From a virus, in the IMG/VR virus record IMGVR_UViG_3300032245_001746, positions 1 through 64,000 of that record: 64,000 nucleotides of DNA, one strand, 5' to 3'. Below are positions 7,693 through 45,247 of this stretch, one piece after another. Both the position numbers and the translations under genes were made by a program. The notes beneath the pieces are model-generated. The model was not told the DNA's origin, searched no databases, and saw nothing but the letters and a program-made list of their open reading frames with translations. Position 1 is the first letter of the stretch. Each line of letters starts with the position of its first letter.

Positions 7693-7711
7693 TAAAACAA
7701 ACCTTAAAAAG

Positions 7712-7741
7712 AATAAGAAGAAGTTTAAACTTCTTCTTATT
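7712..7741 (-). terminator. Perfect 30-nt inverted repeat, terminator after groES
   Basis: A perfect 15+15 inverted repeat with no spacer lies between the groES-like stop (7768) and the dnaJ start (7692). On the minus strand it is followed by a ctttttaa run, consistent with an intrinsic terminator that would separate groES from dnaJ transcription. Confidence 0.7.
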
Positions 7742-7767
7742 AATATTTTTATAAATAAAAAAAATGA

Positions 7768-8121
7768 CTATTCTTCTACTAAAACACACTTGATCATATC
7801 TGGCAAAATCATATTTAATGATCTTCCATTTTTAGAGAGAATACCATCTACAGGAAAATAAGATCCTGCAACCATCACTCTATCGCCCACCTTGAAACCA
7901 AGATTTGGAGCAACACTAGGTCCAATATCCAAAACATAAGCTTGTTGAGAATCTTTTTTATTTGCTTCATCGGTAAGCAAAACAGATGTGGGAGATAATT
8001 CTACCTCTTTAATTCTTTCAATAAGAACCTGATTATTTGCTGGAACTACAGCAGTAATCATCCTTGGTACATTCATTACAACACTTGTTGGCTCGGTTAC
8101 AACATCTTTATTTTTTTTCAT
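7768..8121 (-). CDS. groES: GroES-like co-chaperonin
   Basis: 117 residues, slightly longer than bacterial GroES (about 95) because of a 25-residue N-terminal extension. The beta-barrel core shows NNQVLIERIKEVELSPTSVLL (mobile-loop region), YVLDIGPSV, FKVGDRVMVAGSYFPVDG and a final MIKCVLVEE strand. Phage co-chaperonins such as T4 gp31 cap host GroEL to fold the capsid protein; this is the likely role. The mobile loop is short and lacks the classical IVL-type tripeptide at the expected site, so GroEL contact would need testing. A terminator hairpin follows. Confidence 0.8.
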   Translation of the reverse strand: MKKNKDVVTEPTSVVMNVPRMITAVVPANNQVLIERIKEVELSPTSVLLTDEANKKDSQQAYVLDIGPSVAPNLGFKVGDRVMVAGSYFPVDGILSKNGRSLNMILPDMIKCVLVEE

Positions 8122-8143
8122 TTTATAATTCTTTCTTAAAAAC

Positions 8144-8158
8144 AGTTTAAATTAAACT
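8144..8158 (-). terminator. Weak hairpin after infC
   Basis: A 6-bp stem with a 3-nt loop lies 7 nt after the IF-3 stop, followed on the minus strand by gtttttaag. The stem is short and AT rich, so termination would be inefficient. Confidence 0.3.
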
Positions 8159-8164
8159 AGTATG

Positions 8165-8716
8165 TTACGCTGTTTTTTTTGGAATTAAAACACAATTTAA
8201 ATTATTTCCTTCCAATTTAGGATCAATTTCAACACTAGAAACTTCTGACAAAGCCTCTTTTATTTTTTGTAAAACATTGTATCCTAATTCTTTATGAGCA
8301 TTTTCTCTTTTTTCATATTTCAAATTAAATTTGACTTTTAATCCAGAAGTTAAAAACTTTTTAGCAGCATTAATTTTAACATTAAGATCATGATCTCCAA
8401 TTGAAGGACTTAATCTTATTTCTTTCTCAGATAAAGCTTTTTGGCTTTTATTCTTTTCTTTTTGTTTAATAGATTTTTCATATTTAAACTTACTATAATC
8501 CATTATTTTACAAACAGGAGGATTTGCCATTGGTGATACTTCTACCAAATCTAGATTTTGATCTCTTGCAATTTTTTTTGCTGCATCTGTTGAGAATACG
8601 CCTAAATTTTTATCACCATCTACCAACATAACCTTTGGAACTCTAATCATGTCGTTAATTCTTGTTTTATCTTTTGAATTAAAACTATTTTCATTTTTGA
8701 TAAATTTTTTTAACAT
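8165..8716 (-). CDS. infC: Translation initiation factor IF-3
   Basis: 183 residues, full length for bacterial IF-3. The N-domain has RINDMIRVPKVMLVDGDKN and LDLVEVSPMANPPVCKIMDY (very close to the bacterial signature). A basic linker follows (EKSIKQKEKNKSQK), then the C-domain with KEIRLSPSIGDHDLNVKINAAKKFL and EKRENAHKELG. IF-3 binds the 30S platform, blocks 50S joining and discriminates initiator tRNA and start codons. A phage copy could bias initiation toward phage mRNAs, which fits the phage bS21 gene 4 kb away. There is a 19-residue N-terminal extension before the conserved region. No frameshift or missing block was seen. Confidence 0.95.
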   Translation of the reverse strand: MLKKFIKNENSFNSKDKTRINDMIRVPKVMLVDGDKNLGVFSTDAAKKIARDQNLDLVEVSPMANPPVCKIMDYSKFKYEKSIKQKEKNKSQKALSEKEIRLSPSIGDHDLNVKINAAKKFLTSGLKVKFNLKYEKRENAHKELGYNVLQKIKEALSEVSSVEIDPKLEGNNLNCVLIPKKTA

Positions 8717-24231: not shown

Positions 24232-27200
24232 TTATGCCTTTTTAATTACACTGTTTACTTGATTAATTATATGATCTTTTCTTAATTGTACGTTAGAACC
24301 CATCAATACAGAAACCATTCTTTCTGATTCTGCAAGATCGTTTAACTCTAATTTTATCAATCTTCTGTTTTCAACATTCATTGTTGTGTCAGCCAATTGA
24401 TCAGCATCCATTTCTCCCAAACCTTTAAATCTAACCACTTTCGATTTAGGATTTTGTTTCACTAATAATTGCATTTCTTGATCAGTCCATGCAAATATTC
24501 TACTTTTACCCAAATCAACACAATATAAAGGTGGTTGAGCCAAATATAAATGACCATTAGCAACTAAAGGCTTCATGTATCTGTAAAAGAATGTTAACAA
24601 TAAAGTCGAAATATGACAACCATCATCATCGGCGTCTGCCATTAAAATGATTTTATTATATCTTAATTTTTCAATGTTAAAATCTTCTTTAATTCCAGTT
24701 CCTATTGCTATAATCAATGATTGAATTTCTTTATTTTTTAATAAAGAAGCAATATCTTTCTTTTCAGCATTTATAATTTTACCTCTAATTGGCAAAATTG
24801 CTTGAAATTCTGGATCTCTTCCGTCTTTTCCTGATCCGGCTGCACTATCGCCTTCCACAATAAACAACTCTGAAATTGCAACATTTTCAGTATTACAATC
24901 ATAAAGTTTTCCTGGCATTCTATTAGATTTTCCAAGAAAACCTTTTCTTTTAATTAGGTCAGATTGTTTTTTAGCCGCTGTTCTTGCCTCTTGTGCAATT
25001 AATGCTCGTTCTACAATTTTTTTAACAATAGGTGCGTTTTTATCAAAAAACGAAGTCAGCATATTTGTAGTTAAATTACTTACTACAGTTTCAGCTTCTG
25101 TTGATCCTAATTTTGACTTAGTTTGTGACACAAATTCTGGTCTTGGAAATCTAATACTCACAATTGCAGACAAACCTTCTCTTACATCATCTCCATTTAA
25201 ATTAGGAGCATTTTCCTTTATTAATTTATTATTTCTAGCAAATGTGTTAACAACTCTTGTCAATGCAGTTTTAAAACCAGAAACATGAGTGCCACCATCA
25301 GTAGTTACAATATTATTTACAAAAGATATAATAGATTCGTCATCATCATTAGAATATAATAAAGCTATTTCAACTTGACATTGTTGTCCTGGTCTTGAAG
25401 TCAAATCAGATTTAGCAGAGGCATAAATAGGAGTTGCAGGATAAGTATCCTCTTTTCCTTCAGATAAATATTTTAAATAATCTACTATTCCGCCATCAAA
25501 ACAAAAAGTTTCATTAATTCCAGTTGATTCATTAATAAATGATATTTTTAATCCTTTATTAAGAAATGCCATTTCTTTTAATCTTTTTGTAATGATATTA
25601 TCATTGTATTTTATACCATTTTTAAAAATTTGCTTATCTGCATGCCATTGAATTTTTGTTCCAGTTTGTTTATCTTTCTTATCTAAAGATCTTATTTTTT
25701 GAATTTTACCTTTAGGCTTACCTTCAGAAAAAGATTGTTGCCATAAATATCCATCACGATGAACTTCTGCCACTAATAAATCTGATAAAGCGTTAACACA
25801 AGATGCGCCAACACCATGTAAACCACCAGAAGCGTCATAGCCTGATCCAGAACCACCAAATTTTCCTCCTGCATGAAGTACAGTTAAAACCACTTCTAAA
25901 GCTGATTTCTTTTCTGTTGGATGCATATCAACTGGAATACCTCGACCATTGTCCTCAATAGAAATTGTTTCACCATCTTTTTCTATTTTTATTTTTATTT
26001 CATTACAATGACCTGCCATTGCTTCATCAATTGAATTATGAAGTAAAATGCCTCCGCTGCCACCTACAAAATTTTCATCATCTTCAACTGAAAAGTCATA
26101 AACAAAAGGATGATTTTCACCATCAATTTTTTTGATTGATTTTATTTTTAATGCACCTAAATCGCAATTATTTTCTTTTGCATAATAACATCTGTAAGAT
26201 TTTTCATTTCCAATATACCATTCTACTTTATTTTTATAAAAACTAAAACTTTTTTGTATACTAAGCAACAAGTAAGAAAATTGATTTATTAAAACTTTAC
26301 TTGAAGACGTATATGCAAGTTTTTGTTTTAATTCTATGTTTTTATTTATAAATTGATTAGTTGGATAACCATCACCACTACTCATGGCAAAAACAAGTAA
26401 TTCTCTCTGTCTATCAGAACAATTCCAAATAAAACTAGGAATTGATTTCTTATAACAATTTCTTCCTAACTTGAAATAATCTGTAATCACAGCCACTGCT
26501 TTATTACAATAAACATTATTTGCAGTATCATGTGCTGGTCTAGTGCTTGGATTAAATCCAAAACAATTTTTAATTGTTTTTATAACTTGTTTTAAAAATT
26601 TTAATTCATGAGATCCAACAGATAACACACAATCTAGCATATCTTTGTTTGGTCTATGTCTCACACATCCTTCAGCTAAATAATATCCAACAAATTTAAT
26701 AAAATCATCATTAATATTTAAATATCTATTTATTTTAGATTTTTTGAATCCAATTTTACATTTTTTAGGAACTTTAGATTGTAAACCAAGTTCTACTATA
26801 AGTTTTACAGGAACATAACCAAACCTTTTAAAATTTGAATAATAATTAGAAGGCTTATTTTCTTTAATTAACCAGTCTTTAATTAAAGATCTATTTAATC
26901 TTATAAAATCTGAAATAGATTCAAAATAAACGTTAGAACCTTTATGATTATAAAAAATATCTAAACAATCTAATTCTTCATTGTAATCAACATTGTTTAA
27001 ATCCACTTTACTTGGAACTATCACATATTGACCTTCAATTAAATCTTTTGTTTTGATTGATTTAAATATTGAATCATTACATTTTGTAAATAGCGAATGG
27101 CAATCAGTTACATTTACTTTCAAGTTATTTTGTAATTTGACTTCATATAAATCATGACTTGTTTTGTGTTTGTATAATCTAGTTATTTTCTTCCAATGCA

Positions 27201-27498
27201 TCATTCCTTTTTTTGAAGCAGAATATGCATACATTTCCAGACCAGAAGAGTCAAAACTATTTGCATCTCCAGGAATATATTTGTCAATAATATTTCCTAT
27301 TTCAATTAAATTGAATTTATCATCTTGTTTAATTAAAACAAGCGTATCTGATGTGACAGAATTATCACATATCTCCCATACTAAATGATGTAATCCTTTA
27401 GTATCACTATCTCCAACATACATTCCTGGATTAAATCTTACTGCATCTAGTCCTTCTAAAACTCTAATTTGAGATGCATCATAATTATTTTTTGTCAT
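24232..27498 (-). CDS. gyrB: DNA gyrase subunit B containing an intein
   Basis: 1088 residues including a 442-residue intein (26035-27360), leaving an extein of 646. Extein GHKL ATPase motifs: EICDN/SIDEAMAGH across the splice junction, ISIEDNGRGIPVD and LHGVGASCVNALS. The TOPRIM domain has LFIVEGDSAAGSGKDGRDPEFQAI and ILMADADDDGCHI, then FKGLGEMDADQL. The intein splits the essential Asn-Ser of the ATP-binding EVVDNSIDEA motif, so splicing is required for activity. The ATG overlaps the upstream stop (TAATG). Confidence 0.95.
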   Translation of the reverse strand: MTKNNYDASQIRVLEGLDAVRFNPGMYVGDSDTKGLHHLVWEICDNSVTSDTLVLIKQDDKFNLIEIGNIIDKYIPGDANSFDSSGLEMYAYSASKKGMMHWKKITRLYKHKTSHDLYEVKLQNNLKVNVTDCHSLFTKCNDSIFKSIKTKDLIEGQYVIVPSKVDLNNVDYNEELDCLDIFYNHKGSNVYFESISDFIRLNRSLIKDWLIKENKPSNYYSNFKRFGYVPVKLIVELGLQSKVPKKCKIGFKKSKINRYLNINDDFIKFVGYYLAEGCVRHRPNKDMLDCVLSVGSHELKFLKQVIKTIKNCFGFNPSTRPAHDTANNVYCNKAVAVITDYFKLGRNCYKKSIPSFIWNCSDRQRELLVFAMSSGDGYPTNQFINKNIELKQKLAYTSSSKVLINQFSYLLLSIQKSFSFYKNKVEWYIGNEKSYRCYYAKENNCDLGALKIKSIKKIDGENHPFVYDFSVEDDENFVGGSGGILLHNSIDEAMAGHCNEIKIKIEKDGETISIEDNGRGIPVDMHPTEKKSALEVVLTVLHAGGKFGGSGSGYDASGGLHGVGASCVNALSDLLVAEVHRDGYLWQQSFSEGKPKGKIQKIRSLDKKDKQTGTKIQWHADKQIFKNGIKYNDNIITKRLKEMAFLNKGLKISFINESTGINETFCFDGGIVDYLKYLSEGKEDTYPATPIYASAKSDLTSRPGQQCQVEIALLYSNDDDESIISFVNNIVTTDGGTHVSGFKTALTRVVNTFARNNKLIKENAPNLNGDDVREGLSAIVSIRFPRPEFVSQTKSKLGSTEAETVVSNLTTNMLTSFFDKNAPIVKKIVERALIAQEARTAAKKQSDLIKRKGFLGKSNRMPGKLYDCNTENVAISELFIVEGDSAAGSGKDGRDPEFQAILPIRGKIINAEKKDIASLLKNKEIQSLIIAIGTGIKEDFNIEKLRYNKIILMADADDDGCHISTLLLTFFYRYMKPLVANGHLYLAQPPLYCVDLGKSRIFAWTDQEMQLLVKQNPKSKVVRFKGLGEMDADQLADTTMNVENRRLIKLELNDLAESERMVSVLMGSNVQLRKDHIINQVNSVIKKA
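26035..27360 (-). mobile_element. GyrB intein with LAGLIDADG endonuclease domain
   Basis: In-frame insertion of 442 codons. It starts at Ser (VTSDTLVLIKQDD follows) directly after EICDN and ends GGILLHN before the +1 Ser of SIDEA. Block A-like start, FVGGSGGILLHN end, and two LAGLIDADG-type motifs, FVGYYLAEGC and LVFAMSSGDGY, identify a homing-endonuclease intein. Ser instead of Cys at position 1 is allowed. It sits in the ATP-binding site codons, a typical functionally constrained target. Confidence 0.92.
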
Positions 27499-29653: not shown

Positions 29654-29678
29654 AAATTGCTTTCATTAAAATTAAGAG

Positions 29679-30043
29679 TGGATACGGCGAGAGTTGAACT
29701 CGCGTCTAACATAAAATAACTGAAAAAATACTACATGTTTATTCAATTTTTAATTTAATTAAAATTTAATTAATTGACAAAATAAAATTTTAACGATCAA
29801 ATTTAAAATAAACTTGAAAATTTCAACTAATCTTAACTTAAATCTCGTTGAATAATTTAAGTGCAATCAAATTTTACGAAAGATTTTTTGACGCTATTGA
29901 TTTCGCTTCTCAAATCTTGACTGACTAAGCAGCCAAACGAACAGTTTCGCCATTTACGGCTTGATCAATTTTTAAGTAGCCATTGATCAACTACTACATG
30001 CGTTTTGCAATTAATATTATGATATCGAATGCCCAACGTACCC
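29679..30043 (-). ncRNA. ssrA: Transfer-messenger RNA (tmRNA)
   Basis: 365 nt on the minus strand. The 5' end GGGTACG (30043-30037) pairs with CGTATCC (29686-29680) to form a 7-bp acceptor stem with one G-U pair, followed by discriminator A at 29679; CCA is not encoded. The T arm is GCGAG-TTCAACT-CTCGC, identical in loop to bacterial tmRNA, and the 5' side carries the GGGCATTCGA segment that matches tmRNA GGATTCGA. A pseudoknot-like element (two TTGATCAA copies, and GGC with GCC) lies before the tag reading frame. tmRNA rescues stalled ribosomes and adds a degradation tag. It is one-piece, not permuted. Confidence 0.93.
29925..29960 (-). other. tmRNA tag-peptide reading frame
   Basis: In-frame codons GCC GTA AAT GGC GAA ACT GTT CGT TTG GCT GCT TAG give AVNGETVRLAA and stop. 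The C-terminal LAA matches bacterial tags recognised by Clp/Lon-type proteases. The exact resume codon is uncertain: GCC may belong to pseudoknot 1, and GGC has the U(-5)A(-4) context seen before the E. coli resume codon, giving GETVRLAA. The terminal sequence is certain; the first three residues are not. Confidence 0.85.
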
Positions 30044-30958: not shown

Positions 30959-31909
30959 ATGTTTAAAAAATTTAAATCTTTCTTAGAAGAAAAAGAAAAA
31001 TCATTAGTTGGTGATGTAAAAACAAAATTGGTCGCAGATTACGAAGGACCAGAAGAAAAATATCCACCATCAAATGGCAAAAAAGAAAAAGTAGCACCAT
31101 ATAAAACTCCAACATCAAGTGTTGATCCTAATAAAAAAGAAAAAGGATTAGCTGATTTAGGAGATGGCGATTTAGTGTATGAACCAGATATTCATGGAGA
31201 AAAAGAAAAAAACTTAGGTAATTATCCTAAATCTAAAAATGAAGCATTCATTGAAAAAACTTCAAAACTAGACAATAAAACATTTATTGAAATGATGCTT
31301 AAAAAGAATAAAAAAAATAAAAGTTTAATGGAAGGTCCAAAAAATCCAAACAACAAATTTGAAGTAATTAAATTCGTTGCAGACCTTGCAGCTAAAGATA
31401 AAACATGTGTTGAAAACTTTATTCATGATTCTAAAAGAAGCGGATCTTTAAAAGGTTTACTTGAATATGCATTAAATTTAACAGAAACATATGAAATATT
31501 AGCTGAATTATTTCAAGATAAAACACAAGGAAACTCCAGATTTAATCGATTAGAAAGAGCTTTAGAACAAGTTGGATTGCCACAACATAAATCATCAGAT
31601 TTAGAACTTAACAAAAAATCAAGTATGGATGACATGGACGACGATGATATGTCTCCAGATGATGATATGGATGGTATGGACATGGATGATGAAGATATGG
31701 ACGACGATATGTCATCAGATGAAGACATGGATGATATGGATATGGATGATGAAGATATGGACGACGATATGTCATCAGATGAAGATATGGATGATATGGA
31801 CATGGATGATGATATGTCACCAGATAAACATCCAAATAAAATGAAATCACATGATGATATGGGAGTTGGAATGCTTAAAAAGAATCCTTTTTCTAAAGGA
31901 TTTAAATAA
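30959..31909 (+). CDS. Acidic Asp/Met-repeat protein with capsid-targeting-like N-terminus
   Basis: 316 residues. The N-terminus KFKSFLEEK (residues 4-12) fits the shared motif. The middle contains a predicted helical region (FEVIKFVADLAAKDKTCVENFIHDSKR...LTETYEILAELF). Residues 224-290 are almost only Asp, Met, Ser and Glu in 20-residue repeats, giving an extreme negative charge. Ribosome-binding site aaagga. Highly acidic proteins in phage heads can act as DNA mimics or counter-charge internal proteins; this is speculation. It converges with the ART-like gene (8 bp overlap). Confidence 0.6.
   Translation: MFKKFKSFLEEKEKSLVGDVKTKLVADYEGPEEKYPPSNGKKEKVAPYKTPTSSVDPNKKEKGLADLGDGDLVYEPDIHGEKEKNLGNYPKSKNEAFIEKTSKLDNKTFIEMMLKKNKKNKSLMEGPKNPNNKFEVIKFVADLAAKDKTCVENFIHDSKRSGSLKGLLEYALNLTETYEILAELFQDKTQGNSRFNRLERALEQVGLPQHKSSDLELNKKSSMDDMDDDDMSPDDDMDGMDMDDEDMDDDMSSDEDMDDMDMDDEDMDDDMSSDEDMDDMDMDDDMSPDKHPNKMKSHDDMGVGMLKKNPFSKGFK
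31625..31822. repeat. Acidic 60-bp coding repeats
   Basis: Two near-identical 60-bp units (31685-31744 and 31745-31804) flanked by degenerate partial copies. Codons are nearly all gat, gac, gaa and atg. The differences between the two units are synonymous gat/gac changes, which suggests recent duplication with selection on the protein. Confidence 0.85.
31883..31902 (+). terminator. Putative terminator at the end of the acidic-repeat gene
   Basis: 8-bp stem (aatccttt / aaaggatt) with a 4-nt loop, overlapping the last codons. It is followed by taaataatttttctt on the plus strand. Moderate strength. Confidence 0.45.
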
Positions 31910-32784: not shown

Positions 32785-33045
32785 TTATTTATGTTTAATT
32801 AATTTGTTTAATTTGATATTTTCATCAAAATAAATAGTAATTGATCCTTTATATTTAGTCTCATATGGAGCACCTTCAAAACGCTCTAGATGAACTACAT
32901 TATCAAATTCATCTGTAATATAAAAACCATAAAACAAAAAACTTGAATAAAAAACAAATTTATTTTTTCCAAATTTCAATTTATTACAAAAACTATATGG
33001 ATTATTAATATCAGAATAAAGATTAATTTTATAATTTTGGTTCAT
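32785..33045 (-). CDS. Hypothetical protein (86 aa)
   Basis: 86 residues from ATG 33045, which overlaps the polymerase-half stop as ATGA. Predicted all-beta (INLYSDINNPYSFCNKLKFG, FVFYSSFLFYGFYIT, KGSITIYFDENIK). Aromatic rich. No family recognised. Translationally coupled to the PHP/polymerase gene. Confidence 0.6.
   Translation of the reverse strand: MNQNYKINLYSDINNPYSFCNKLKFGKNKFVFYSSFLFYGFYITDEFDNVVHLERFEGAPYETKYKGSITIYFDENIKLNKLIKHK
32786..32792 (-). promoter_or_regulatory. ATAAATA late-promoter-like box before the ART-like gene
   Basis: Minus-strand ATAAATA 5 nt upstream of ATG 32780 with no ribosome-binding site between. It overlaps the 3' end of the 32785 gene. Confidence 0.4.
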
Positions 33046-35666
33046 GAAAATGGACACTCCTCTGTTGATCCATTTTTTATAATATCAATATTTGCACTAA
33101 GTTTTTTAATTGGATCTGAAGAAAATCTAATTTTCATAGATTTACCACCACGTGCAGGACTTAAAAATCTAGAAAACAATAAATCATGTTTTATAGGATC
33201 AACATCAATTAAACCTAAAGCATAAGCTACTAAACTACCTCCAATAGAATTATGTACTAAAAAACTACTAGTTAAATAATTATGATTATCCTCTATTTCT
33301 AGATCATAAACAAATTTTGGACCTTTAATCTCTTTAATAGATTTAATTCTCAACATCAAACCATCTTTTGTTGATCTCCACACATATTTTTTATTACAAT
33401 TTTTTGAACATCCTATTCTAACATCTAATGGACAATATAGAACATATGATGGAGAAATATTTTTATAATCTTCTCTCAAATCTGTTCTTGTATATTTTTT
33501 AATAGAACATGGCAAACCTATTCTTAATAATAAAAATCTAATTTGCTCTGCTAGTTTATATGAAACAGTTTCAAATTTTGCTTTACCCTCATCTTCATAG
33601 CCATCTGCTAAAAAATATCCACGTAAATATGATTCCACAATGGATACGGGTGCATTTAATATGCAATCAGGAACATATTTACTGTGAGATGTATGTTCAT
33701 ATTCTGGATGTAGTTCGTCAAACAATTTCCTCAAATAAGGAGAGGAAAAAATTGTTTGTATTAAACTTTTATTTTTAGATAAATATTCTTTACAATTAAA
33801 ATTGTAATTTTTCATTAATGAACAAACTTCATTTATGTGTTTTCTAATTAGAGAATTATCACAAAATCCAACCTTTAAAGATCCATCAGAATTAGTCCAA
33901 CCATCACCAACAAAAACTCCCAATATAAATGCCCAATCTTCATTAAGACTCCAAATTCTATTATTTTTTATAGAAGTTTTTCCACCTTTGGAATTAAAAG
34001 TACTTACAACAAAGTTATCATCAAATGATAATTCGCTACCATTTTTAGATTTTCCTTTTGAAAATTTTGATAAATCCACCGTGTAATTTTCAACAACCTC
34101 TACTTTAGGAAAAGGCACAAAACACCAATCTCCAACAGACAATTCCTGTGCTTGAAACCAATCCAAATCTTGAGTAGGTTCTATCCAACATTTTCTAGAT
34201 TTTTTTGTAGAGTCAGACCATTTATCCCAATTTTTGGGTCTTTTTGATTTTTCAGCATATATTTTATGGTCTAAAGTTAACGTAACGCCAACTTCATCTC
34301 CATAATATGTCCTGATTTTTCTAACATTTTCATTAAATGGATACTTCATTGTTTTTAAAACTTTTTTAACAGTTCCATCAACAGTCCATATTTTATCACC
34401 AACTTTAATATTTTTTAATATATTTGTACTTCCATTTTTTAAACGAATTGGAGTATTATGTTTCAAACAGCCCCTGCCTGGTCCGACAGCCTCTGAGCCA
34501 TCGCCCCATCCTAATATTAGTGGAGAAACTCTTCTAGCTTCATCAGTAATCATTTTTTGAACTAAAAAGTAAGAACAAAAACCTTTTTCTTTAATCAACT
34601 CATATTCTTCTTTAATTCTATTGAAGTACTGTTTAGTTTTTGGTATTTTTTTAAATTCAAAACCTTGTTTTATTGCATCTAACAACTTCTGATCATCGTT
34701 TTCAAATGATGGAAATTTAATTGTTCTATCTATTTGAAATTCAACGCCTTTTGCCAATTCACAAATTTTAACAGTATTTTGTTTTGCTTGTTTAAAGATA
34801 TCATAATCCATTACGTCTTGATAATCAGACAACCATTTTTCATTTATTTCTTCTTCAGATTTCATCCAAAGATTTTGATCTTGTATTTCAAATACATCTC
34901 CATCTTCAACAAGTTTTTGTTCAACTTGTTTCATTGTTTTACCCATTTGCATCATCATCATGATAGACTGCATTTTCATATCTTCTTTAAGACAGACGTG
35001 ACAATCATTTGTAATGATAAGTGGTAAACCATATCTTTCTGCTGCTTTCATAATAAAAACATCATATGGTTTTTGTTTTTTAAAATCCAACAACATCATT
35101 TCCAAATAAAATTTATCGTGAAACATATTTTTGTATATTTCAACCATTTTAAATCCAGCTTCTTCGCCACCTTTATCGAAAGCTTGTCCTATTTCGCTAT
35201 TATAGCAACATGATGTAAATATAATTCCTTCTTTGTGTTCTACCAATTGTTGTCTATTAACTCTCGGTTTATAATAAAATCCTTTTTTATATCCAAGAGT
35301 AGATAATTTTACTAAATTTGAATAACCTGTAACGTTGTAAGCAATACCTAATAAATGATATGATTTTTTAAAAAATGGTTTTTGATCTTCAGACATATCT
35401 TTATAAAACAAAGAACTTTCACCATGTTTTAATTCTGTTTGAAGCGGATTAACATATAATTCACAAGCAAAAATTGGACTAATTTTATTATCTTCACATG
35501 TTTTAATTTGTCTTGGGACTGCACCCATAACACCATGATCTGAAATAGTTAAAAATTTTTGATTAATTTGCTTTGCTCTTGCTGCATATTCGTCTGGCAA
35601 GCCATAACCATCAAGAAGACTAAAATGACTATGTAAATGTAAATGTTCAAAACCAGTTATTTCCAC
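33042..35666 (-). CDS. dnaE: DNA polymerase III alpha, PHP and N-terminal half, with intein
   Basis: 874 residues, of which 407 are an intein (33249-34469), leaving an extein of 467. PHP-domain ligands: HLHLHSHFSLLDG, ISDHGVMGAV, ACELYV, FTSCCYN and NDCHVCL. Then the palm start GFCSYFLVQKMI, GPGRG, C-extein SIGGSLVAYALGLIDVDPI and LLFSRFLSPARGG. The product ends 30 residues later with no PDIDTDF catalytic motif or anything beyond it; those are encoded at 18627. So the polymerase is made as two separate polypeptides, this one first needing protein splicing. The metal ligands suggest the PHP site is intact. Confidence 0.92.
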   Translation of the reverse strand: MEITGFEHLHLHSHFSLLDGYGLPDEYAARAKQINQKFLTISDHGVMGAVPRQIKTCEDNKISPIFACELYVNPLQTELKHGESSLFYKDMSEDQKPFFKKSYHLLGIAYNVTGYSNLVKLSTLGYKKGFYYKPRVNRQQLVEHKEGIIFTSCCYNSEIGQAFDKGGEEAGFKMVEIYKNMFHDKFYLEMMLLDFKKQKPYDVFIMKAAERYGLPLIITNDCHVCLKEDMKMQSIMMMMQMGKTMKQVEQKLVEDGDVFEIQDQNLWMKSEEEINEKWLSDYQDVMDYDIFKQAKQNTVKICELAKGVEFQIDRTIKFPSFENDDQKLLDAIKQGFEFKKIPKTKQYFNRIKEEYELIKEKGFCSYFLVQKMITDEARRVSPLILGWGDGSEAVGPGRGCLKHNTPIRLKNGSTNILKNIKVGDKIWTVDGTVKKVLKTMKYPFNENVRKIRTYYGDEVGVTLTLDHKIYAEKSKRPKNWDKWSDSTKKSRKCWIEPTQDLDWFQAQELSVGDWCFVPFPKVEVVENYTVDLSKFSKGKSKNGSELSFDDNFVVSTFNSKGGKTSIKNNRIWSLNEDWAFILGVFVGDGWTNSDGSLKVGFCDNSLIRKHINEVCSLMKNYNFNCKEYLSKNKSLIQTIFSSPYLRKLFDELHPEYEHTSHSKYVPDCILNAPVSIVESYLRGYFLADGYEDEGKAKFETVSYKLAEQIRFLLLRIGLPCSIKKYTRTDLREDYKNISPSYVLYCPLDVRIGCSKNCNKKYVWRSTKDGLMLRIKSIKEIKGPKFVYDLEIEDNHNYLTSSFLVHNSIGGSLVAYALGLIDVDPIKHDLLFSRFLSPARGGKSMKIRFSSDPIKKLSANIDIIKNGSTEECPFS
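33249..34469 (-). mobile_element. Pol III alpha intein with LAGLIDADG endonuclease domain
   Basis: 407-codon in-frame insertion between GPGRG and SIGGS. It starts at Cys (LKHNTPIRLKNGS follows) and ends TSSFLVHN with a +1 Ser. The Hint-type segment KVGDKIWTVDGTVKKVLKT and homing motifs ILGVFVGDGW and LRGYFLADGY are present. It interrupts the palm-domain GPGRGS nucleotide-binding loop. Confidence 0.93.
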
Positions 35667-35883: not shown

Positions 35884-36579
35884 TCATAAATCAATATTGT
35901 ATTTTTCTACAGCCATAACTTCTTCAAAAGTATTATAATTATCGACTCCAAGTATAGCATCACACAATCCATATTCTTGAGCATCTTGTGATGTCATGTA
36001 CCAATCTGATTTTTCTCTAAGTTTTCGATCAAAGAAAGATTTAATCTTTCCTTCTGACATCTTTCTGTCAACAAAATATTGACCAACCTTAGCTCGTTTA
36101 GCAAAAATTTCAATCATTCTTTTTTTCAAACATTCAACGGAATGATCAATTGATGATTTAGCAGCAGTTATAGAACCATAATGACCAGCATTTCCATAAT
36201 GCATCATAAATTCACAATCTTTCATCATAACTCTATAATCTGCTGATTGCAAAATCACACCACTCATAGAACTAGCTTGCGCATAAGATATTATTGTAAT
36301 AGGACATTTACAAAATCTGATTGAATTAAAAATTGCCATTCCATCAGCCCAATTGCCGCCTATTGAATGCATATGAACAAGAATAGGATTTGAATTTTGT
36401 CTTGATAAAATATTAAGATTTTTAATAAATGAAGTTGCCATCTTGTATTCAACACCAGCTTCATTTATTCCTTCTTCATATTCCAAACTATGAAGATAAA
36501 TTTCTCTGTTGTGGTAATTAATACCATATTGATGAATATCACTAACTAATTGAGCCAATTCTGTTCTTCTTCTTGACAT
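35884..36579 (-). CDS. clpP: ClpP-like serine protease
   Basis: 231 residues. ClpP/crotonase-fold signatures: VHMHSIGGNWADGMAIFNSI (oxyanion region), SYAQASSMSGVILQSAD with the nucleophile in the SMS motif, and MMHYGNAGHYGS with the catalytic His. The Asp is probably in the following helix region. The C-terminus DWYMTSQDAQEYGLCDAILG is the canonical 'A-x-E-Y-G-L-I-D' ClpP end. Phage ClpP-like proteins act in head maturation or in degradation with a Clp ATPase; no ClpX is visible here. Ribosome-binding site aaaagg. A phage tmRNA lies 6 kb away, so tag-directed proteolysis is conceivable. Confidence 0.9.
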   Translation of the reverse strand: MSRRRTELAQLVSDIHQYGINYHNREIYLHSLEYEEGINEAGVEYKMATSFIKNLNILSRQNSNPILVHMHSIGGNWADGMAIFNSIRFCKCPITIISYAQASSMSGVILQSADYRVMMKDCEFMMHYGNAGHYGSITAAKSSIDHSVECLKKRMIEIFAKRAKVGQYFVDRKMSEGKIKSFFDRKLREKSDWYMTSQDAQEYGLCDAILGVDNYNTFEEVMAVEKYNIDL

Positions 36580-36617: not shown

Positions 36618-36788
36618 TTACAATAATTCAGCTTTTTTAATAGAAAAATCAACTACTTCTGAATCTTCATACTCTTTTTTTAAAATTATACCTAATTCAG
36701 ATAAAATAAAGGCTAATCTTTCTAAGGATTCAAAAATATCTTCATCTTTAAAAATAGTAATTTTTTTAATTTCTTTCATTTTCATCAT
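36618..36788 (-). CDS. Small hypothetical protein between spoVR and clpP
   Basis: 56 residues, too short for most ORF cut-offs. Sequence features: MKMKEIKKITIFKDEDIFESL, then helical RLAFILSELGIILKKEYED and VVDFSIKKAEL. It overlaps the spoVR 3' end by 23 bp and lies in the 186-bp space before clpP. A gagag ribosome-binding site precedes ATG 36788. The plus-strand ORF in the same place is its antisense shadow. Confidence 0.55.
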   Translation of the reverse strand: MMKMKEIKKITIFKDEDIFESLERLAFILSELGIILKKEYEDSEVVDFSIKKAELL

Positions 36789-38367
36789 ATTGCTCTCTAG
36801 TTAATAACTCAACAGATCCATCTTCAGAACCAAAACAAACATAAATTAACTCTTCACCAGATTTATTTTTAGTGGACAAATATACATTGTTTTTCCAAAA
36901 ATAATATAGAGATTGTAAAACTGGTTCTAAATAAGATTCATACAATTCTCGACCATCAAACTTGTGTTCTAAATAAAGATAACCTTTACCTTTATAATTT
37001 GGATCAACCAATTCAATTTCAGGAAGTCCTCCATTCATATATTTTAACATCAAACCTTTTTTAATATCCAAAAAATTTCTATCTTCTAATTTAACATCTC
37101 CATTTGGCTGTCTTTTCCAATTAAAAAATTCATGTTTTTCACAAAATTCAGGAGTGAAATATTTTAATATCGCTATAAAATCATTAGTTTCTTTTCTAAC
37201 TTCAAATATTTTTTCCTTACCTAAATTAAGATTTAAATCCCAATTTAATTTTTTATTTAAATCCGTACAATTTTCGTATTCAGGACCGAATCTGCCTTTA
37301 TTCCATCGTTCTTCTATATCTAGAAACAAACTAAATCCAAGTTTATAAGGATTAGTAGAATATTTTCCTCCCAATACGCCCATTTTATGTTTAGCGTATT
37401 CTATAATTGAATTTTTATTTTCTCCATGACCTAATGCTGCCAGACCTTCTTTGCACATTATGTGATAATCAATATATGAAGCCCATCCTTCATTCATCAT
37501 TTTAGTCGAACGTTGTGGAGCAAAATAAATACTTTCTTGATATAACATTGCAATAATATCTTGTTGCCAAGGTTTTAATGGAGCATTATCTCTTATAAAT
37601 GGCATTACATCTTTAGTAGGACTATCAAATATTTCTAATTCTTTAGCTAATTCTTCGCGATGAATTTCTTCATTTTGTTTATCAATCCAAGTTTTGTTGT
37701 TGATATAAGGTTCCATGTAATCATGTGTCTCATCTACATGAAGTCTTTTTGGATGTTTCCATTTTCTAACATCTTTAACAATATGTTCTTTTATAACCTT
37801 ACTGCTCCATGCTTTAGATGGATCAATTAATGTTGCAATTCTCAAACAATGATCTATAAACTCTGTTACTTTTTCTCTACCCCATCTTGAAGAATATTTT
37901 CTTATCCTTGTTCCATGATTAGCCAATTGATTAATCATATTCAATGAGGTTTTTTCAAAAAATACATTATTTTTGAAAAAATCATTATGACCTAAAGCAT
38001 GTGCAATAACTGTTACGTTATCTAAAATGGTATTAGAATTTAAACAATAAAGATAGCAAGGTGATGTGTTAATTACCATTTCATAAATTCTGTGAGCACC
38101 GTATTCATATCCCCTTTGCAATTCCTCATATTCCATTCCCCATTGCCAATGAGGATATCTAACTGGAAATCCACCATATGCCGCTACTTCTGATATTTCA
38201 TCATAACTAAGCATTTGAATAACAGTTGGATAAAAATCCAATCCAAAATCTTTACATTTTTGAAAAATAGTTGGAATCAATTTTTTTAAATCATCTGGTA
38301 TTTGAACTCCAGGAGTAGTGGAATCTCCTGGAAGCATTGATAGACCATGAAAAAATTTACTTGACAT
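36766..38367 (-). CDS. spoVR: SpoVR/YcgB family protein
   Basis: 533 residues from ATG 38367 (ribosome-binding site aaagga); the open frame extends further but without support. Family signatures: FYPTVIQMLSYDEISEVAAYGGFP, PHWQWGMEYEELQRGYEYG, YEMVINTSPCYLYCLNSNT, HALGHNDFFKNNVFF, EGWASYIDYHIM and NPYKLGFSLFLDIEERWNKG. SpoVR is needed for spore cortex formation in Bacillus; YcgB in enterobacteria is a stress-regulon protein of unknown biochemistry. It is the third gene after prkA and yeaH, matching the conserved bacterial PrkA-YeaH-SpoVR set. A TATAAATA box lies upstream. Confidence 0.95.
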   Translation of the reverse strand: MSSKFFHGLSMLPGDSTTPGVQIPDDLKKLIPTIFQKCKDFGLDFYPTVIQMLSYDEISEVAAYGGFPVRYPHWQWGMEYEELQRGYEYGAHRIYEMVINTSPCYLYCLNSNTILDNVTVIAHALGHNDFFKNNVFFEKTSLNMINQLANHGTRIRKYSSRWGREKVTEFIDHCLRIATLIDPSKAWSSKVIKEHIVKDVRKWKHPKRLHVDETHDYMEPYINNKTWIDKQNEEIHREELAKELEIFDSPTKDVMPFIRDNAPLKPWQQDIIAMLYQESIYFAPQRSTKMMNEGWASYIDYHIMCKEGLAALGHGENKNSIIEYAKHKMGVLGGKYSTNPYKLGFSLFLDIEERWNKGRFGPEYENCTDLNKKLNWDLNLNLGKEKIFEVRKETNDFIAILKYFTPEFCEKHEFFNWKRQPNGDVKLEDRNFLDIKKGLMLKYMNGGLPEIELVDPNYKGKGYLYLEHKFDGRELYESYLEPVLQSLYYFWKNNVYLSTKNKSGEELIYVCFGSEDGSVELLTREQYDENERN

Positions 38368-38392
38368 TATATTTATTTCCTTTTTATTTATA

Positions 38393-39595
38393 TTAAAGAG
38401 ACCCAACGCCGAAAGGTTTAGATGGACTATTATTAGCACCAAGTAAATCTAAAATTGCATTTTTGACCTGCTTGTCTCTTTCCTCTTGAGAAAGAGTATT
38501 ATACCAATTATTGGATTCTCCAACTGCGGTTGTTTTTATATTTTTTGTACCTTTAAGGTTAGTATCAACATATTCTTTTAACGAATTGTTATACGCAGAC
38601 ATGATCTGTGTGATACCAATAAAATTAACTACATTATCAGGAAAACTTTCTTTTATAACCTTTACAAATTCAGAATTATCATTGAAATCATTTTCTCCAT
38701 CTGTAAAATAAAATATATAAAAATTCCACTTATTAATTGGAAATCTAGTTTCTAATTGAGATGATATTAATTTTAAAGCACTTGAACAAATTGTTCCACC
38801 ACCATATCGATATTTATAAAATTTATTTTCATCAACCTCTGATGCTACTGTATCATGCCAAACATAACAACGCTCAACACGTTCATAAAACCTTTTAATC
38901 CATATGTCAATCCACCAAGCAATATCAGAAACTATATCGCATTTATATTGATCCATAGATCCAGATCCATCTCTTGCAAAAAACACAACAGCATTAGATG
39001 AAGGTTTTTTAATTACCTTATACTGTCTGTATCTTTTGTCTTGATTAATTGGAGTAATCATTTTAACAGGAACGGAAAAACCTGGAGGCGTCCAAAGTTT
39101 ATTAATATCTCCTGTCGCAGATTGTCTTTTCATAGCTTGCATCATTGTTCTGCGATTATGTCTTAATGATTCTGGACCTAATAAAGATATACTGTTATAT
39201 TTTATTTTTTCTTCTTGTAAGACATCATTTTGTCTAGGTTTTAATGGAGGAAGTCGCAATTCATTTTCCATAAATTGTAGAACTTCTTCTAAATCCAAAT
39301 TAATTTCTACACCTTCACCTTCCTCTTGACCAGCTTGACCTGCTCCTTGACCTTGTTTAGGACCTTTCTTTAAAATATCACCATCTTTTCCTTGACCTCT
39401 TCCAACACCTTTATTGTTATCACCATATACAATATGTGGAATATCCATTTTAGGAATAGTAATAGGAACTCTTTTACCATTTGGTCGAGTTCTAAAAATA
39501 GTGCCATTATTAACAAATTTCTTTAAAGCTTTTCTTATTTTACCACTATAAACATCTCTAAAATGTTTATGATCTTCTTCTATTCTATTTGGCAT
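38393..39595 (-). CDS. yeaH: YeaH/DUF444 family VWA-like protein
   Basis: 400 residues. N-terminal EEDHKHFRDVYSGKIRKALK and a Gly/Gln-rich linker (GKDGDILKKGPKQGQGAGQ) are typical for YeaH. The von Willebrand A-like part has a metal-site motif FARDGSGSMDQYK (D-G-S-G-S). It also has ERCYVWHDTVASEVDENKFYKYRYGGGTICSSALKLI and a FYIFYFTDGENDFND block. YeaH works with the kinase PrkA/YeaG in E. coli nitrogen-starvation and stress responses. It lies 90 bp after prkA, across a terminator-like hairpin, and 25 bp before spoVR. Confidence 0.93.
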   Translation of the reverse strand: MPNRIEEDHKHFRDVYSGKIRKALKKFVNNGTIFRTRPNGKRVPITIPKMDIPHIVYGDNNKGVGRGQGKDGDILKKGPKQGQGAGQAGQEEGEGVEINLDLEEVLQFMENELRLPPLKPRQNDVLQEEKIKYNSISLLGPESLRHNRRTMMQAMKRQSATGDINKLWTPPGFSVPVKMITPINQDKRYRQYKVIKKPSSNAVVFFARDGSGSMDQYKCDIVSDIAWWIDIWIKRFYERVERCYVWHDTVASEVDENKFYKYRYGGGTICSSALKLISSQLETRFPINKWNFYIFYFTDGENDFNDNSEFVKVIKESFPDNVVNFIGITQIMSAYNNSLKEYVDTNLKGTKNIKTTAVGESNNWYNTLSQEERDKQVKNAILDLLGANNSPSKPFGVGSL

Positions 39596-39627
39596 TAAAA
39601 TTTTTCCTTAAACAAAAATATTAAGAA

Positions 39628-39661
39628 AAATAGCCATAACAATTAATTGTTATGGCTATTT
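39628..39661 (-). terminator. Strong hairpin between prkA and yeaH
   Basis: A 17-bp perfect inverted repeat with no loop spacer (core aatagccataacaatt). On the minus strand it is followed by tttttcttaat. It would stop or attenuate prkA transcripts before yeaH, giving more kinase than partner messages. Confidence 0.7.
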
Positions 39662-39685
39662 AGCATTATCAAAAACACTTAACAA

Positions 39686-41773
39686 TTAATCTTCAACAGA
39701 ATCGCCACGAGCGAACAAAGAACTAACATAATTTAAAACATCTTCTGCCGATTTATCGTTATAACCAAAATTTTTAATTAATCTTTGCTTAATAGCATCA
39801 ATTTTTTCTTGTATTGTTGGATCAACCACAGTAGCACCACTAGAATTTAAAGCACTCAATTTAATGTGATCTTTAGTATCCTCAAACAATTTAGCCTCTA
39901 AAGCTTTTTTCAATTCTGGGTCTGAATCCCATTTAAATTCAAGTCCTTTAACCTTCTGTGCTCCAATGAATGTAGCAACACTTCTTCTGTAATCATCTGC
40001 ACCTGTTTCTGGAACATTTATCTTTTCCTCAATAGACCTCATTAATTTTTCATCTGGTTCTTGTTCACGTCCTGTATAAGGATTAACTATTTTGGTTTTA
40101 TAAATATAAGCAACAACGTTATCAATATAATTGGTACATAATCTAACAATTGCTTCTTCATCTCCAACAAGTGCTTTTTGAACTTCATTTTTCAAAATAT
40201 CACTTAATTCTTTAAGAGCCAATTCAGCACATGTTATGTAATTAGAAACATCTTCTTTATTAAGAAGAGCAGAATTACTCAATCCTTCTTTAATTTCATT
40301 AAGAACCATGAATGGATTAATATAATCATGATGACTACTTAGACAATTTGATATTTTATCTTGAGCAAATCTAACAGATACTCCCTTATCCATTCCTTCA
40401 CCTTCATATTTATCTCTTAGTTCCTTAACTCTATCTTCAGTGTAACCTGGAAGGAATTTGCCATCATAAAGTTTAACTTTATCAACAAGACTTAAATTTG
40501 GTTCTTTTCCATCTTTAAGTCTTGTTAAAATTAACCAAAATGCAACAATTTCTATTGTGTGAGGGGCAATGTGTTGATTTACTTTGTTTGGAGCATAATC
40601 CTGCATTAACACCTTGATTTCATCACTTAATTTCAAAAGATACGGAACGTCAATTTTAACAGTTCTGTCTCTCAAAGCTTCCATTGTTTGATCGTCTTTA
40701 AGTTTCTTAAACTCTGGCATATTTGAATGTCCAATTATCGCTTCATCAATAGAAACTTGAGAAAACTTTTTAGGCTTTATACTTCTTTCTTGAGAAGCAC
40801 CAAGTAAATCGTACAAAAATGCTTTATCTAATTTAAGCATTTCAATAAATTCACAAAATCCTCTATTTGCTACACAAAACTCTCCATCAAAATTAAACGC
40901 TCTAGGATCTGAGTCTACTCCAAAATGAGGCAACTTACTATAATTGATATCTCCAGTTAATTCAGTAGCATCTTGATTTTTTTCATCTTTTGGTTGAAAA
41001 GTTGCGATTCCAACACGATCAGCTTCAGAGTGAACTTTTCTTATAACCTTTATATGAGTATCAATTACTTTCTTCCAATCACCAGAATATCTCTTTAATA
41101 GCTCAGACATAAATTTTTTACATCTTGGATTCAACTCTCCATCAACACGAATAGGATAAACTGCACTTTTGTTAATTCCATTTTTAACAGATTGTTCTAC
41201 GAAAATAGAATTAATTCTTGAAAGAACATTATGTCTCATTTCTAATGGTATAAGTTTTATTGGATCATCATTCATAGGACACTCATCTTCTTCAGATGTA
41301 TAAAGATCTGAAGGGAGATTGACCCATTTATAAGTGTACCAAGCACCATCTTCTGTTCTTGAATATTCTTCCAAACCTTTCTTTAATAATCTGCATATTG
41401 TTGATTTAGAAGAACCTACTGGTCCGTGTAGGAGTAATATTCTTTTTTCTGTACCGTGACATCCAGCCGCACCGCGAATAAATTTAACAATAGCATCTAA
41501 CGTTTCATCTAAACCAAAAATTGGAATATTAGGATCATCAAAAAAGTTATAATGAGTATAAGTTTTACGATAAATCTTTATAGGCTTTGTTCCTTTTGAC
41601 AAAATCATATCGTATAATCTTTGATACGCTGTTCTACATAGACGTGGATTTTGCTCAACTTTTTGCAAATATTCATCAAAACTAATTATTTCATTATAAG
41701 ATAAATATTTATTTCTATCAAACAAACTTGACAACCAATTTAAATCAATCGTTTTTTCATCTATTTCTGACAT
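39686..41773 (-). CDS. prkA: PrkA/YeaG-type serine protein kinase
   Basis: 695 residues, near the size of bacterial PrkA (about 640). The AAA+ part has Walker A LLLHGPVGSSKST (PrkA-specific spacing) and RILLLHG before it, then EDECPMNDDPIKLIP and a characteristic KLDKAFLYDLLGASQERSIKPKKFSQVSIDEAIIGHSN block. A PrkA C-terminal kinase domain follows (RFAQDKISNC...YINPFMVLNEI). Bacterial PrkA phosphorylates stress and sporulation regulators and may have Lon-like activity. First gene of the three-gene module. A ribosome-binding site (aagga) precedes the ATG. Confidence 0.95.
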   Translation of the reverse strand: MSEIDEKTIDLNWLSSLFDRNKYLSYNEIISFDEYLQKVEQNPRLCRTAYQRLYDMILSKGTKPIKIYRKTYTHYNFFDDPNIPIFGLDETLDAIVKFIRGAAGCHGTEKRILLLHGPVGSSKSTICRLLKKGLEEYSRTEDGAWYTYKWVNLPSDLYTSEEDECPMNDDPIKLIPLEMRHNVLSRINSIFVEQSVKNGINKSAVYPIRVDGELNPRCKKFMSELLKRYSGDWKKVIDTHIKVIRKVHSEADRVGIATFQPKDEKNQDATELTGDINYSKLPHFGVDSDPRAFNFDGEFCVANRGFCEFIEMLKLDKAFLYDLLGASQERSIKPKKFSQVSIDEAIIGHSNMPEFKKLKDDQTMEALRDRTVKIDVPYLLKLSDEIKVLMQDYAPNKVNQHIAPHTIEIVAFWLILTRLKDGKEPNLSLVDKVKLYDGKFLPGYTEDRVKELRDKYEGEGMDKGVSVRFAQDKISNCLSSHHDYINPFMVLNEIKEGLSNSALLNKEDVSNYITCAELALKELSDILKNEVQKALVGDEEAIVRLCTNYIDNVVAYIYKTKIVNPYTGREQEPDEKLMRSIEEKINVPETGADDYRRSVATFIGAQKVKGLEFKWDSDPELKKALEAKLFEDTKDHIKLSALNSSGATVVDPTIQEKIDAIKQRLIKNFGYNDKSAEDVLNYVSSLFARGDSVED

Positions 41774-41843: not shown

Positions 41844-41877
41844 AAAAAAAGAGAAGATTTTATTCTTCTCTTTTTTT
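41844..41877 (-). terminator. Terminator after the FmdB-like gene
   Basis: 14-bp stem (aaaaaaagagaaga and complement) with a 6-nt loop, starting at the stop codon of the 41876 gene. The A-tract gives a T-run on the minus strand. Bidirectional in form, so it insulates prkA from the upstream operon. Confidence 0.75.
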
Positions 41878-42211
41878 ATTTTACTTCTCCAAAATATTTA
41901 CCACTAGAAATATCATCCATTTCTTTGTAAGCTTTTTTACCTTTTAACAACTTTTCACCTTCTTCTCTTTGTTTTTTTACATTTTTTAAATTAGATTTAA
42001 ATCTATAATCATGTCCATTAGACTCACTAACCCATTTATCAGTTCCAACAGGCTGATTAAATTTATAAGAAGTAGAAGATATTAATTTTTCCTTCTTTTT
42101 AGAATTACATTTTGGACAAACAACATCTTTATATTTATCTGTTGGATCATATTTTACAAAATCTGTATATATTTCTTCACATTCTTTACATTTAAAATCA
42201 AAATTTGGCAC
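41876..42211 (-). CDS. FmdB-type zinc-ribbon protein
   Basis: 111 residues. MPNFDFKCKECEEIYTDFV and VCPKCNSKKKEKLISS form the FmdB/Zn-ribbon motif (C-x2-C...C-x2-C) in the first 45 residues; the rest is basic and helical. FmdB-like proteins are small putative regulators. It is the last gene of the tightly packed run starting at 43591, with a terminator at its stop. Confidence 0.7.
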   Translation of the reverse strand: MPNFDFKCKECEEIYTDFVKYDPTDKYKDVVCPKCNSKKKEKLISSTSYKFNQPVGTDKWVSESNGHDYRFKSNLKNVKKQREEGEKLLKGKKAYKEMDDISSGKYFGEVK

Positions 42212-43891: not shown

Positions 43892-45247
43892 CTAAATGAG
43901 ATTTAATTGTTTTAATTTTTCTGTAGTTGATACACATTCTTGAAAATTAAATATAATTACTTCAGCATATTCTTTTCCAACAACATCTTCTGGATGGTAG
44001 TCCCCACCTTTTACTATCTTTTTAGGTTTTATTTTTTTAATTATTTCTAAAGGAGTATCTTCTTCAAACCAAGTAACATAATCAACAAATTCCAAAGAAG
44101 AAACAATCTTCATTCTATCTTCTAATGAATAAATAGGTCTTTTTTCACCTTTAAGTCTTTTAACAGAATTATCTGAATTAAGAGCAACAACTAGTTTTTC
44201 ACCTTGTTTTTTTGCAAACTTTAAGCATTCTATATGTGCAGGCGTAAGACCCGCATCGAAACAACCATTTGTGAACACTAAATCGTTTGAATTAAACTCA
44301 AAATCAGAATTAACTATTTTTGCATTGCAATTATCATGATGTTTCTTTAAATCATTCAAATCAATAGCATATCCATTAAGTTTTTGAACATATATACTGC
44401 TGGCAAAGAAGGCTATTTCAATAGATTCTTGAATACTCAAATTTAAAGATTGACATATAGAAATAAATGAAATAAAACAATCTCCAGCACCTACAACACT
44501 TTGAACATTTATCGTGTTTTTTGGAACATATTCTCCATATTCATCATATGTTTTATAATACACTCCCTTACCTTCATTTGTTATAATACATACTTTACAA
44601 TTTGTTTCTTTCATCAAAATGTCACATTGTTTCTTCCAATCCTTTGTGCCTGTCATCAAAATAGCTTCTTTGTAATTAGGTTTAAAAATGGTACAACCAT
44701 ACCATTTAGATGCAGGTCCTAATTTAGGATCAACAATTGTTATAATATCTTCACAATTACTTAATATAGATTTTATATATTCCTCGTCAAATAACCCCTT
44801 ATTATAATCAGATAAAACTAAAACATTTGATTCTTGTTTTAATTCATTAAAATAATCTAATAAAACATTACGAACATCAAAAAGTTGTTCCTCATTTAAT
44901 TTATAATTTTCAAATTCATCATCAATTCTGGCAACTTGATTATTTCCACAATAATATCTACTTTTAACTGGAATTTTTGCATTATAATTTCCATGATGTT
45001 CTTCAACTGAAATAAAATAAGCATTTATGAATCTTTCTATTTGTTCATACACTTTGGCAGCACCACCAGAAGTTTTAATTGGCTTTTTTCCATTTAATTT
45101 AATTATAGGAATTGGACATTCTGGTGAAATCCTAGTCATTTCACATTGATAATGTTCATCAATTATGTTATCTCCAAAAACAATAATTTTGTTATTTTTA
45201 TAGCAATTATATTCCAGTAATTTTATAAATTTTTCAATTATATTCAT
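43892..45247 (-). CDS. hldE: HldE/RfaE-like bifunctional sugar kinase/nucleotidyltransferase
   Basis: 451 residues, near E. coli HldE (477). The N-domain is PfkB-type: IIVFGDNIIDEHYQ, KTSGGAAKV, VLSDYNKGLF, and VVGAGDCFISFISI with the GAGD catalytic loop. The C-domain is nucleotidyltransferase: TNGCFDAGLTPAHIECL, NSDNSVKRLKGEKRPI, EFVDYVTWFEEDTPLEII, IVKGGDYHPEDVVG and a final NFQECVSTTEKL. HldE makes ADP-heptose precursors for LPS. The usual HxGH reads TPAH, so the first His is lost and adenylyl transfer may be altered. Two GT-B proteins at 13-15 kb could be the users (inference). Confidence 0.9.
   Translation of the reverse strand: MNIIEKFIKLLEYNCYKNNKIIVFGDNIIDEHYQCEMTRISPECPIPIIKLNGKKPIKTSGGAAKVYEQIERFINAYFISVEEHHGNYNAKIPVKSRYYCGNNQVARIDDEFENYKLNEEQLFDVRNVLLDYFNELKQESNVLVLSDYNKGLFDEEYIKSILSNCEDIITIVDPKLGPASKWYGCTIFKPNYKEAILMTGTKDWKKQCDILMKETNCKVCIITNEGKGVYYKTYDEYGEYVPKNTINVQSVVGAGDCFISFISICQSLNLSIQESIEIAFFASSIYVQKLNGYAIDLNDLKKHHDNCNAKIVNSDFEFNSNDLVFTNGCFDAGLTPAHIECLKFAKKQGEKLVVALNSDNSVKRLKGEKRPIYSLEDRMKIVSSLEFVDYVTWFEEDTPLEIIKKIKPKKIVKGGDYHPEDVVGKEYAEVIIFNFQECVSTTEKLKQLNLI

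Follow-up and report, generated by a model that had tools for sequence, protein, structure and literature searches.

The 64,000-nucleotide window analysed here (positions 1 to 64,000 of IMG/VR record IMGVR_UViG_3300032245_001746, a virus record of 319,857 bp with a terminase at 198864-199433 of the record) carries on its minus strand, at 36766-41773, three adjacent genes that code for PrkA, YeaH/DUF444 and SpoVR, all of full length and in the bacterial order. The three families are widespread and conserved in bacteria, and we know of no agreed biochemical activity for any of them. The initial annotation, made from the sequence alone, had recognised a complete set, and the profile matches and the intact key residues confirm it. 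We are nearly certain both of the identity of the trio and of its old co-inheritance in a clade of large phages. The kind of system is already known; what is new here is an old, clade-wide, co-inherited phage variant of it, and the occurrence of inteins in SpoVR, several of them at the invariant NEGxA motif.

The first gene, prkA (39686..41773), encodes a 695-aa AAA+ ATPase of the PrkA family with a helical C-terminal domain. This assignment is supported by nearly full-length profile matches to PF08298 (6.6e-80) and PF06798 (1.5e-69), by the tree described below and by a close homologue of solved structure (9xip, match at 1.7e-205; also 9xiq and 9xir). The Walker A motif pointed out initially, GPVGSSKST (residues 117-125; 41399..41425, minus strand), is present, and the pattern GPVGS[SA]KST is kept across an alignment of 60 PrkAs from phages and bacteria. 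Further downstream, EFIEML, GHSNMPE and EALRDRT also have a form identical to that of bacterial PrkA, the identity over the full length being 48-56%. The phage PrkA scores 194 bits where the NCBIfam equivalog model of the E. coli-type protein demands 576, and is, as judged from its sequence, a member of the family but not an ortholog at that level; YeaH and SpoVR also fall below their equivalog cut-offs. The label of kinase given in the initial annotation was not upheld. The C-terminal domain is predicted to be all-helical (predicted local distance difference test score, pLDDT, 77; predicted template modelling score 0.57; moderate confidence), the modelled domain does not show the bilobal fold with a β-rich N-lobe by which Hanks-type Ser/Thr kinases are recognised, and no kinase occurs among its listed fold matches, which are insignificant. 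Purified PrkA of Bacillus anthracis forms oligomers with ATP, but no kinase activity could be detected in it and its protease activity was negligible (PMC13001217). The modelled fold and this biochemical result together make it unlikely that PrkA is a kinase.

The second gene, yeaH (38393..39595, minus strand), encodes a 400-aa VWA protein of the DUF444/YhbH family, identified by its match to PF04285 (2e-63), by alignment and by its tree, with about 31-40% identity to bacterial YeaH. The metal site D-G-S-G-S noted initially (residues 209-213; 38957..38971) belongs to a metal ion-dependent adhesion site (MIDAS), whose residues D209, S211, S213, T268 and D299 are all present and invariant in the aligned divergent phage relatives (11 sequences for the first three). 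A terminator-like hairpin lies between prkA and yeaH (39628..39661, minus strand; 15-bp stem, 4-nt loop, weak U tract), and its folding z-score of -4.65 against shuffled sequences indicates that it is real here. The stoichiometric control that had been read into it did not stand, the hairpin not being conserved: many relatives have a gap of 13-30 bp without a hairpin at this place.

The third gene, spoVR (36766..38367, minus strand), matches PF04293 at 7e-107 and SpoVR_C at 6e-07, and the protein is about 36-44% identical to bacterial SpoVR; its tree supports the assignment. The open reading frame (ORF) of 558 aa opens with a TTG at 38442 that overlaps yeaH; the ATG at 38367, which gives a protein of 533 aa, is the likelier start on sequence grounds, since it lies 25 nt past the yeaH stop and is preceded by an AAGGA-type ribosome site. 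The histidines of H123-A-L-G-H127 (37987..38001) and the residues E293, G294 and A296 of N292-E-G-W-A296 (37480..37494) are invariant in 12 divergent phage sequences and in 49 phage and bacterial ones. Close alignment thus revealed no loss of key residues in any of the three proteins. In the SpoVR model (pLDDT 83), H123 and H127 share the helix 114-133 and E293 stands on the helix 266-306; we infer that these three residues bind a metal, the two histidines being a putative ligand pair. A gluzincin-type metallopeptidase was considered and rejected: H-A-L-G-H has no Glu after the first His, no peptidase profile was matched, no fold match was significant, and 49 SpoVRs scanned against Pfam showed no relation to peptidases. 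Weak rows in the Protein Data Bank (PDB) fold search that include metallopeptidases were insignificant and were not used as evidence. By sequence search, no solved structure was found for either SpoVR or YeaH.

Several relatives carry in-frame inteins in SpoVR, inserted either at N100/T101 (L012, L016, L017, L252, L270) or directly after NEGWA (L032, L250, L251, L263, L270), so that L270 has one at each site; insertions at NEGxA are also found in the distant huge phage LR756504 (L053). L018 has almost the same PrkA and YeaH as the intein-bearing L017, yet its SpoVR is uninterrupted; the scan that found the SpoVR inteins saw none in PrkA or YeaH. Inteins prefer conserved functional sites, and their insertion at NEGxA makes this motif a likely functional centre of SpoVR. 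Two bacterial SpoVRs (L066 and L123, from metagenome-assembled genomes of a Chloroflexota and a Deltaproteobacterium) have intein-like in-frame insertions after NEGWA, the site used in the phages.

The trio is not a one-off in this record but a clade-wide, co-inherited unit next to dnaE. A search with PrkA found 38 viral loci at 59-70% identity, with prkA, yeaH and spoVR in order wherever the contig reaches far enough, usually with a zinc-ribbon gene before the trio and with dnaE after it. A second search, with a bait independent of the trio (the N-terminal half of DnaE, which is split in this clade), returned 59 loci of the clade, two of them too short upstream. Of the 57 usable loci, 53 have beside dnaE the trio, or as much of it as the retrieved DNA can contain; some phages were found more than once, so that the 57 are not independent observations. 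The other four (L238 = L239, L244 and L247, three phages) have no PrkA or SpoVR on the contig available (44-104 kb): the whole trio is missing, and the zinc-ribbon and dnaE genes flank its usual position. Locus L264, on a 13-kb contig, has yeaH-spoVR with no prkA directly upstream. The large terminase TerL as bait gave 18 mostly fragmentary records, with PrkA and SpoVR in three, the carriers being scattered over the TerL tree; in the ten larger records the trio tracks the phage dnaE (three with both, seven with neither), a pattern in which a fragment and a true loss are indistinguishable. A chimeric assembly is very unlikely, the identical gene order being found in dozens of other viral contigs. 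That the clade keeps the trio together and, where it lacks it, lacks it only as a block, and that inteins sit at the core motif of SpoVR, argues that the three proteins form one machine.

The phage sequences form one clade each against the sampled bacteria in the trees of PrkA (30 rows), YeaH (32) and SpoVR (28), with SH-aLRT supports of 99, 100 and 100, respectively, and long stems; the comparison with bacterial sets thus disclosed no recent host capture. These are trees of a quick type, in which the bacterial rows are the best hits of one scan, so that the true donor may be a closer bacterium outside the sample. The inner groups agree across the three trees (for example the window with L003 and L004, and L027 with L029 and L043), and the nearest sampled bacterial relatives are mainly Myxococcota, Planctomycetota, Bdellovibrionota and Chloroflexota. 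Between close phage pairs, the ratio of nonsynonymous to synonymous substitution rates (dN/dS) is 0.006-0.10, which denotes strong purifying selection, with the exception of spoVR in L017/L018, where the intein-bearing ORF of L017 inflates the value, 0.35. The GC content at third codon positions (GC3) of the trio is that of native phage genes. The single phage clade per gene, the matching inner groups and the strong purifying selection point to an old acquisition, probably a single one, after which the three genes were inherited together; the trio is a lasting part of this clade and not a recent theft.

Bacterial prkA-yeaH(yhbH)-spoVR(ycgB) operons contain the same three families in the same order, whereas the phage copies form a separate clade in every tree. 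The search among other large phages, which the initial annotation had proposed, also found the trio outside this clade. The Thermus phages phiYS40, TMA, MN1, Lalka8 and phiLo have PrkA, DUF444 and SpoVR in one cluster of the phage genome, annotated without comment; unlike the trio described here, theirs runs yeaH-spoVR-prkA and stands near the terminase in TMA and Lalka8. Their PrkAs are 27-30% identical to that of the window and 40-61% identical among themselves, as befits a separate phage lineage, and the position of the Thermus phage rows in our trees is unsure because of long branches. The huge phages LR756511 and LR745206 carry the trio too. That of LR745206 is of the proteobacterial (YeaG/YcgB) type, its PrkA being about 64% identical to the YeaG of Enterobacter phage LAU1 and 26% to the window PrkA; more generally, the YeaG-type PrkAs of LR745206, LR756502 and LR756504 are 25-26% identical to that of the window and 61-65% to enterobacterial-type YeaG. 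SpoVR and PrkA are also listed for the Ralstonia jumbo phage RsoM2USA (PMC8504454), again of proteobacterial type, with a SpoVR 56% identical to that of Vibrio. There are thus at least three phage PrkA groups by identity (this clade, the Thermus phages and the YeaG-type huge phages), and the low identity between them suggests separate acquisitions. The YeaG-YeaH pair of phage LAU1 was set aside as probable host DNA: it lies at the end of the record, without SpoVR, beside transposase and resistance genes. Our literature search, whose coverage did not extend to subscription papers, found no paper that treats the trio as a phage module.

The model we propose for the trio is that of an ATP-driven machine. 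In it, PrkA would act not as a protein kinase but as an AAA+ ring motor; YeaH would be the VWA adaptor of PrkA and would grip the partner through the MIDAS metal; and SpoVR, with its invariant HxxxH...NEGxA centre, would be the client, remodelled or loaded with metal by PrkA-YeaH as nitric oxide reductase is matured by NorQ-NorD. Pairs of an AAA+ ATPase and a MIDAS-VWA protein serve to remodel client proteins and to insert metals. The client of NorQ-NorD is not activated unless the ATPase and the MIDAS are both functional (PMC9976466), and the motor has been proposed to twist a linker of its VWA partner (PMC13036017). The resemblance lies in the gene pair, an AAA+ ATPase encoded with a MIDAS-VWA protein as in NorQ-NorD and RavA-ViaA (pairs of MoxR AAA+ and VWA proteins), and in the client, which is encoded with the pair in NorQ-NorD (PMC13036017, PMC9976466) as SpoVR is with PrkA-YeaH. 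SpoVR would be the natural client, since it travels with PrkA and YeaH in bacteria and in phages.

Three points weigh against this model. At an E-value of 0.001, PrkA matches only the AAA_PrkA and PrkA models and no MoxR-type model; PrkA has been classed as a Clade III AAA+ (PMC13001217); and the SpoVR fold has no significant match in the PDB, hence no recognisable solved fold. Because of the first two, the comparison with NorQ-NorD can only be an analogy and not membership, the more so as SpoVR is unrelated to nitric oxide reductase. We give about an even chance to an AAA+/VWA/client machine. A wider form of the proposal, in which several phage lineages would have separately adopted a three-part ATP-driven metallation or remodelling machine whose SpoVR has a new metal-dependent activity at HxxxH...NEGxA, a site that inteins have invaded repeatedly, is speculative and, on balance, doubtful. 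In any case, the phage trio offers a divergent version of the system for study and names the residues for testing.

As to its purpose, the product of the machine would maintain the envelope and the proteome of the infected cell in a functional state through a long lytic cycle under starvation or stress. We favour such a support because an earlier study cites yeaH as affecting the resistance to antimicrobial peptides, and ycgB likewise on the strength of an unpublished remark (PMC2375023), and we put it forward tentatively, in preference to dormancy switching. Its main rival is an action of the trio on a phage product, a part of the head, of the packaging apparatus or of the replisome, rather than on host physiology, since the trio of Thermus phages lies among or near head and packaging genes (between the head genes and TerL in Lalka8, close to TerL in TMA). 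The location of the trio in this clade between the zinc-ribbon gene and clpP or dnaE, and the occurrence of inteins in SpoVR as in DnaE, GyrB and RecA of this phage, would fit as well. However, phage gene neighbourhood is weak evidence, SpoVR is the obvious client and travels with PrkA-YeaH in bacteria, and, to judge by their contigs, three members of the clade manage without the trio, so that we regard such a role as unlikely.

The trio could also be a kinase or sporulation switch through which the phage imposes or blocks a dormancy programme of the host, as the initial annotation had proposed. The loss of prkA and spoVR impairs sporulation in bacilli (PMC13001217), and an ocean virome study counted spoVR as a viral sporulation gene and read it as one of host persistence (PMC8940887). 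Yet nothing in the window or in its relatives shows such a control, PrkA has no kinase fold in the model and no detectable kinase activity in B. anthracis (PMC13001217), the nearest sampled bacterial relatives are not Bacillota, and members of the families are found in bacteria and archaea that do not sporulate, including the E. coli, Thermus and Haloferax control genomes. We consider this switch improbable, and virome surveys should be cautious here, the labels of "sporulation" or "kinase" auxiliary genes being unwarranted for these families. That the phage proteins would poison the host's own PrkA-YeaH-SpoVR complex is very unlikely: the low identity of phage YeaH and SpoVR to the bacterial proteins could suit interference, but all three parts are carried, the ATPase and metal-site residues are all kept under strong purifying selection, unlike those of a dead decoy, and PADLOC, which looks for defence systems, gave no match. 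A recent accidental capture of a host operon without phage role, to which only the bacterial gene order would lend itself, has practically no chance of being true, being refuted by the single deep phage clade of each gene and by the dN/dS values far below 1, as well as by the native GC3 and the wide presence.

Around the trio, the gene upstream of prkA (41876..42211, minus strand) encodes the FmdB-type zinc ribbon (TIGR02605, above cut-off) that precedes prkA in most loci, and the space between the two genes holds, at 41844-41877, a palindromic hairpin that resembles a terminator and can be read on either strand. Further upstream, a bifunctional HldE-like protein (sugar kinase and nucleotidyltransferase; 43892-45247) is encoded, as it is upstream of prkA in many relatives. 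Downstream of spoVR, a ClpP-like protease gene (35884..36579, minus strand; PF00574) is the only ClpP match of the record; its matches to PHROG head maturation protease families suggest that it may encode such a protease. ClpP was rejected as a fixed partner of the trio and is a frequent neighbour only: it is often not found near the trio, and it is kept in the trio-less L244. In the trio-less L238 and L247, clpP is missing too.

The other genes of the window include those of DNA polymerase III alpha (two genes), gyrases A and B, a RecA-like protein, translation initiation factor IF-3, DnaJ and a transfer-messenger RNA (tmRNA). Throughout the clade, DNA polymerase III alpha is encoded as two genes, here at 33042-35666 (PHP/N-part) and 18627-21260 (finger part), and nothing suggests that a split intein joins the two products; the N-part in the window carries a LAGLIDADG intein. 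Gyrase B (24232-27498) and the RecA-like protein (60772-63108) also contain inteins with LAGLIDADG domains, which brings the replication genes of this phage to at least three inteins. The tmRNA gene (29678-30043), unusual for a phage, has the predicted tag GETVRLAA and belongs to the same region as ClpP and DnaJ, and the adjoining genes of DnaJ, a Cpn10-like protein and IF-3 (6655-8716) form a host-like proteostasis and translation set. Finally, an Asp/Met/Ser-rich repetitive stretch (DDDMSSDEDMDDMDM repeats; 31513-31850) lies near the C-terminus of a 316-aa protein encoded on the plus strand at 30959-31909.

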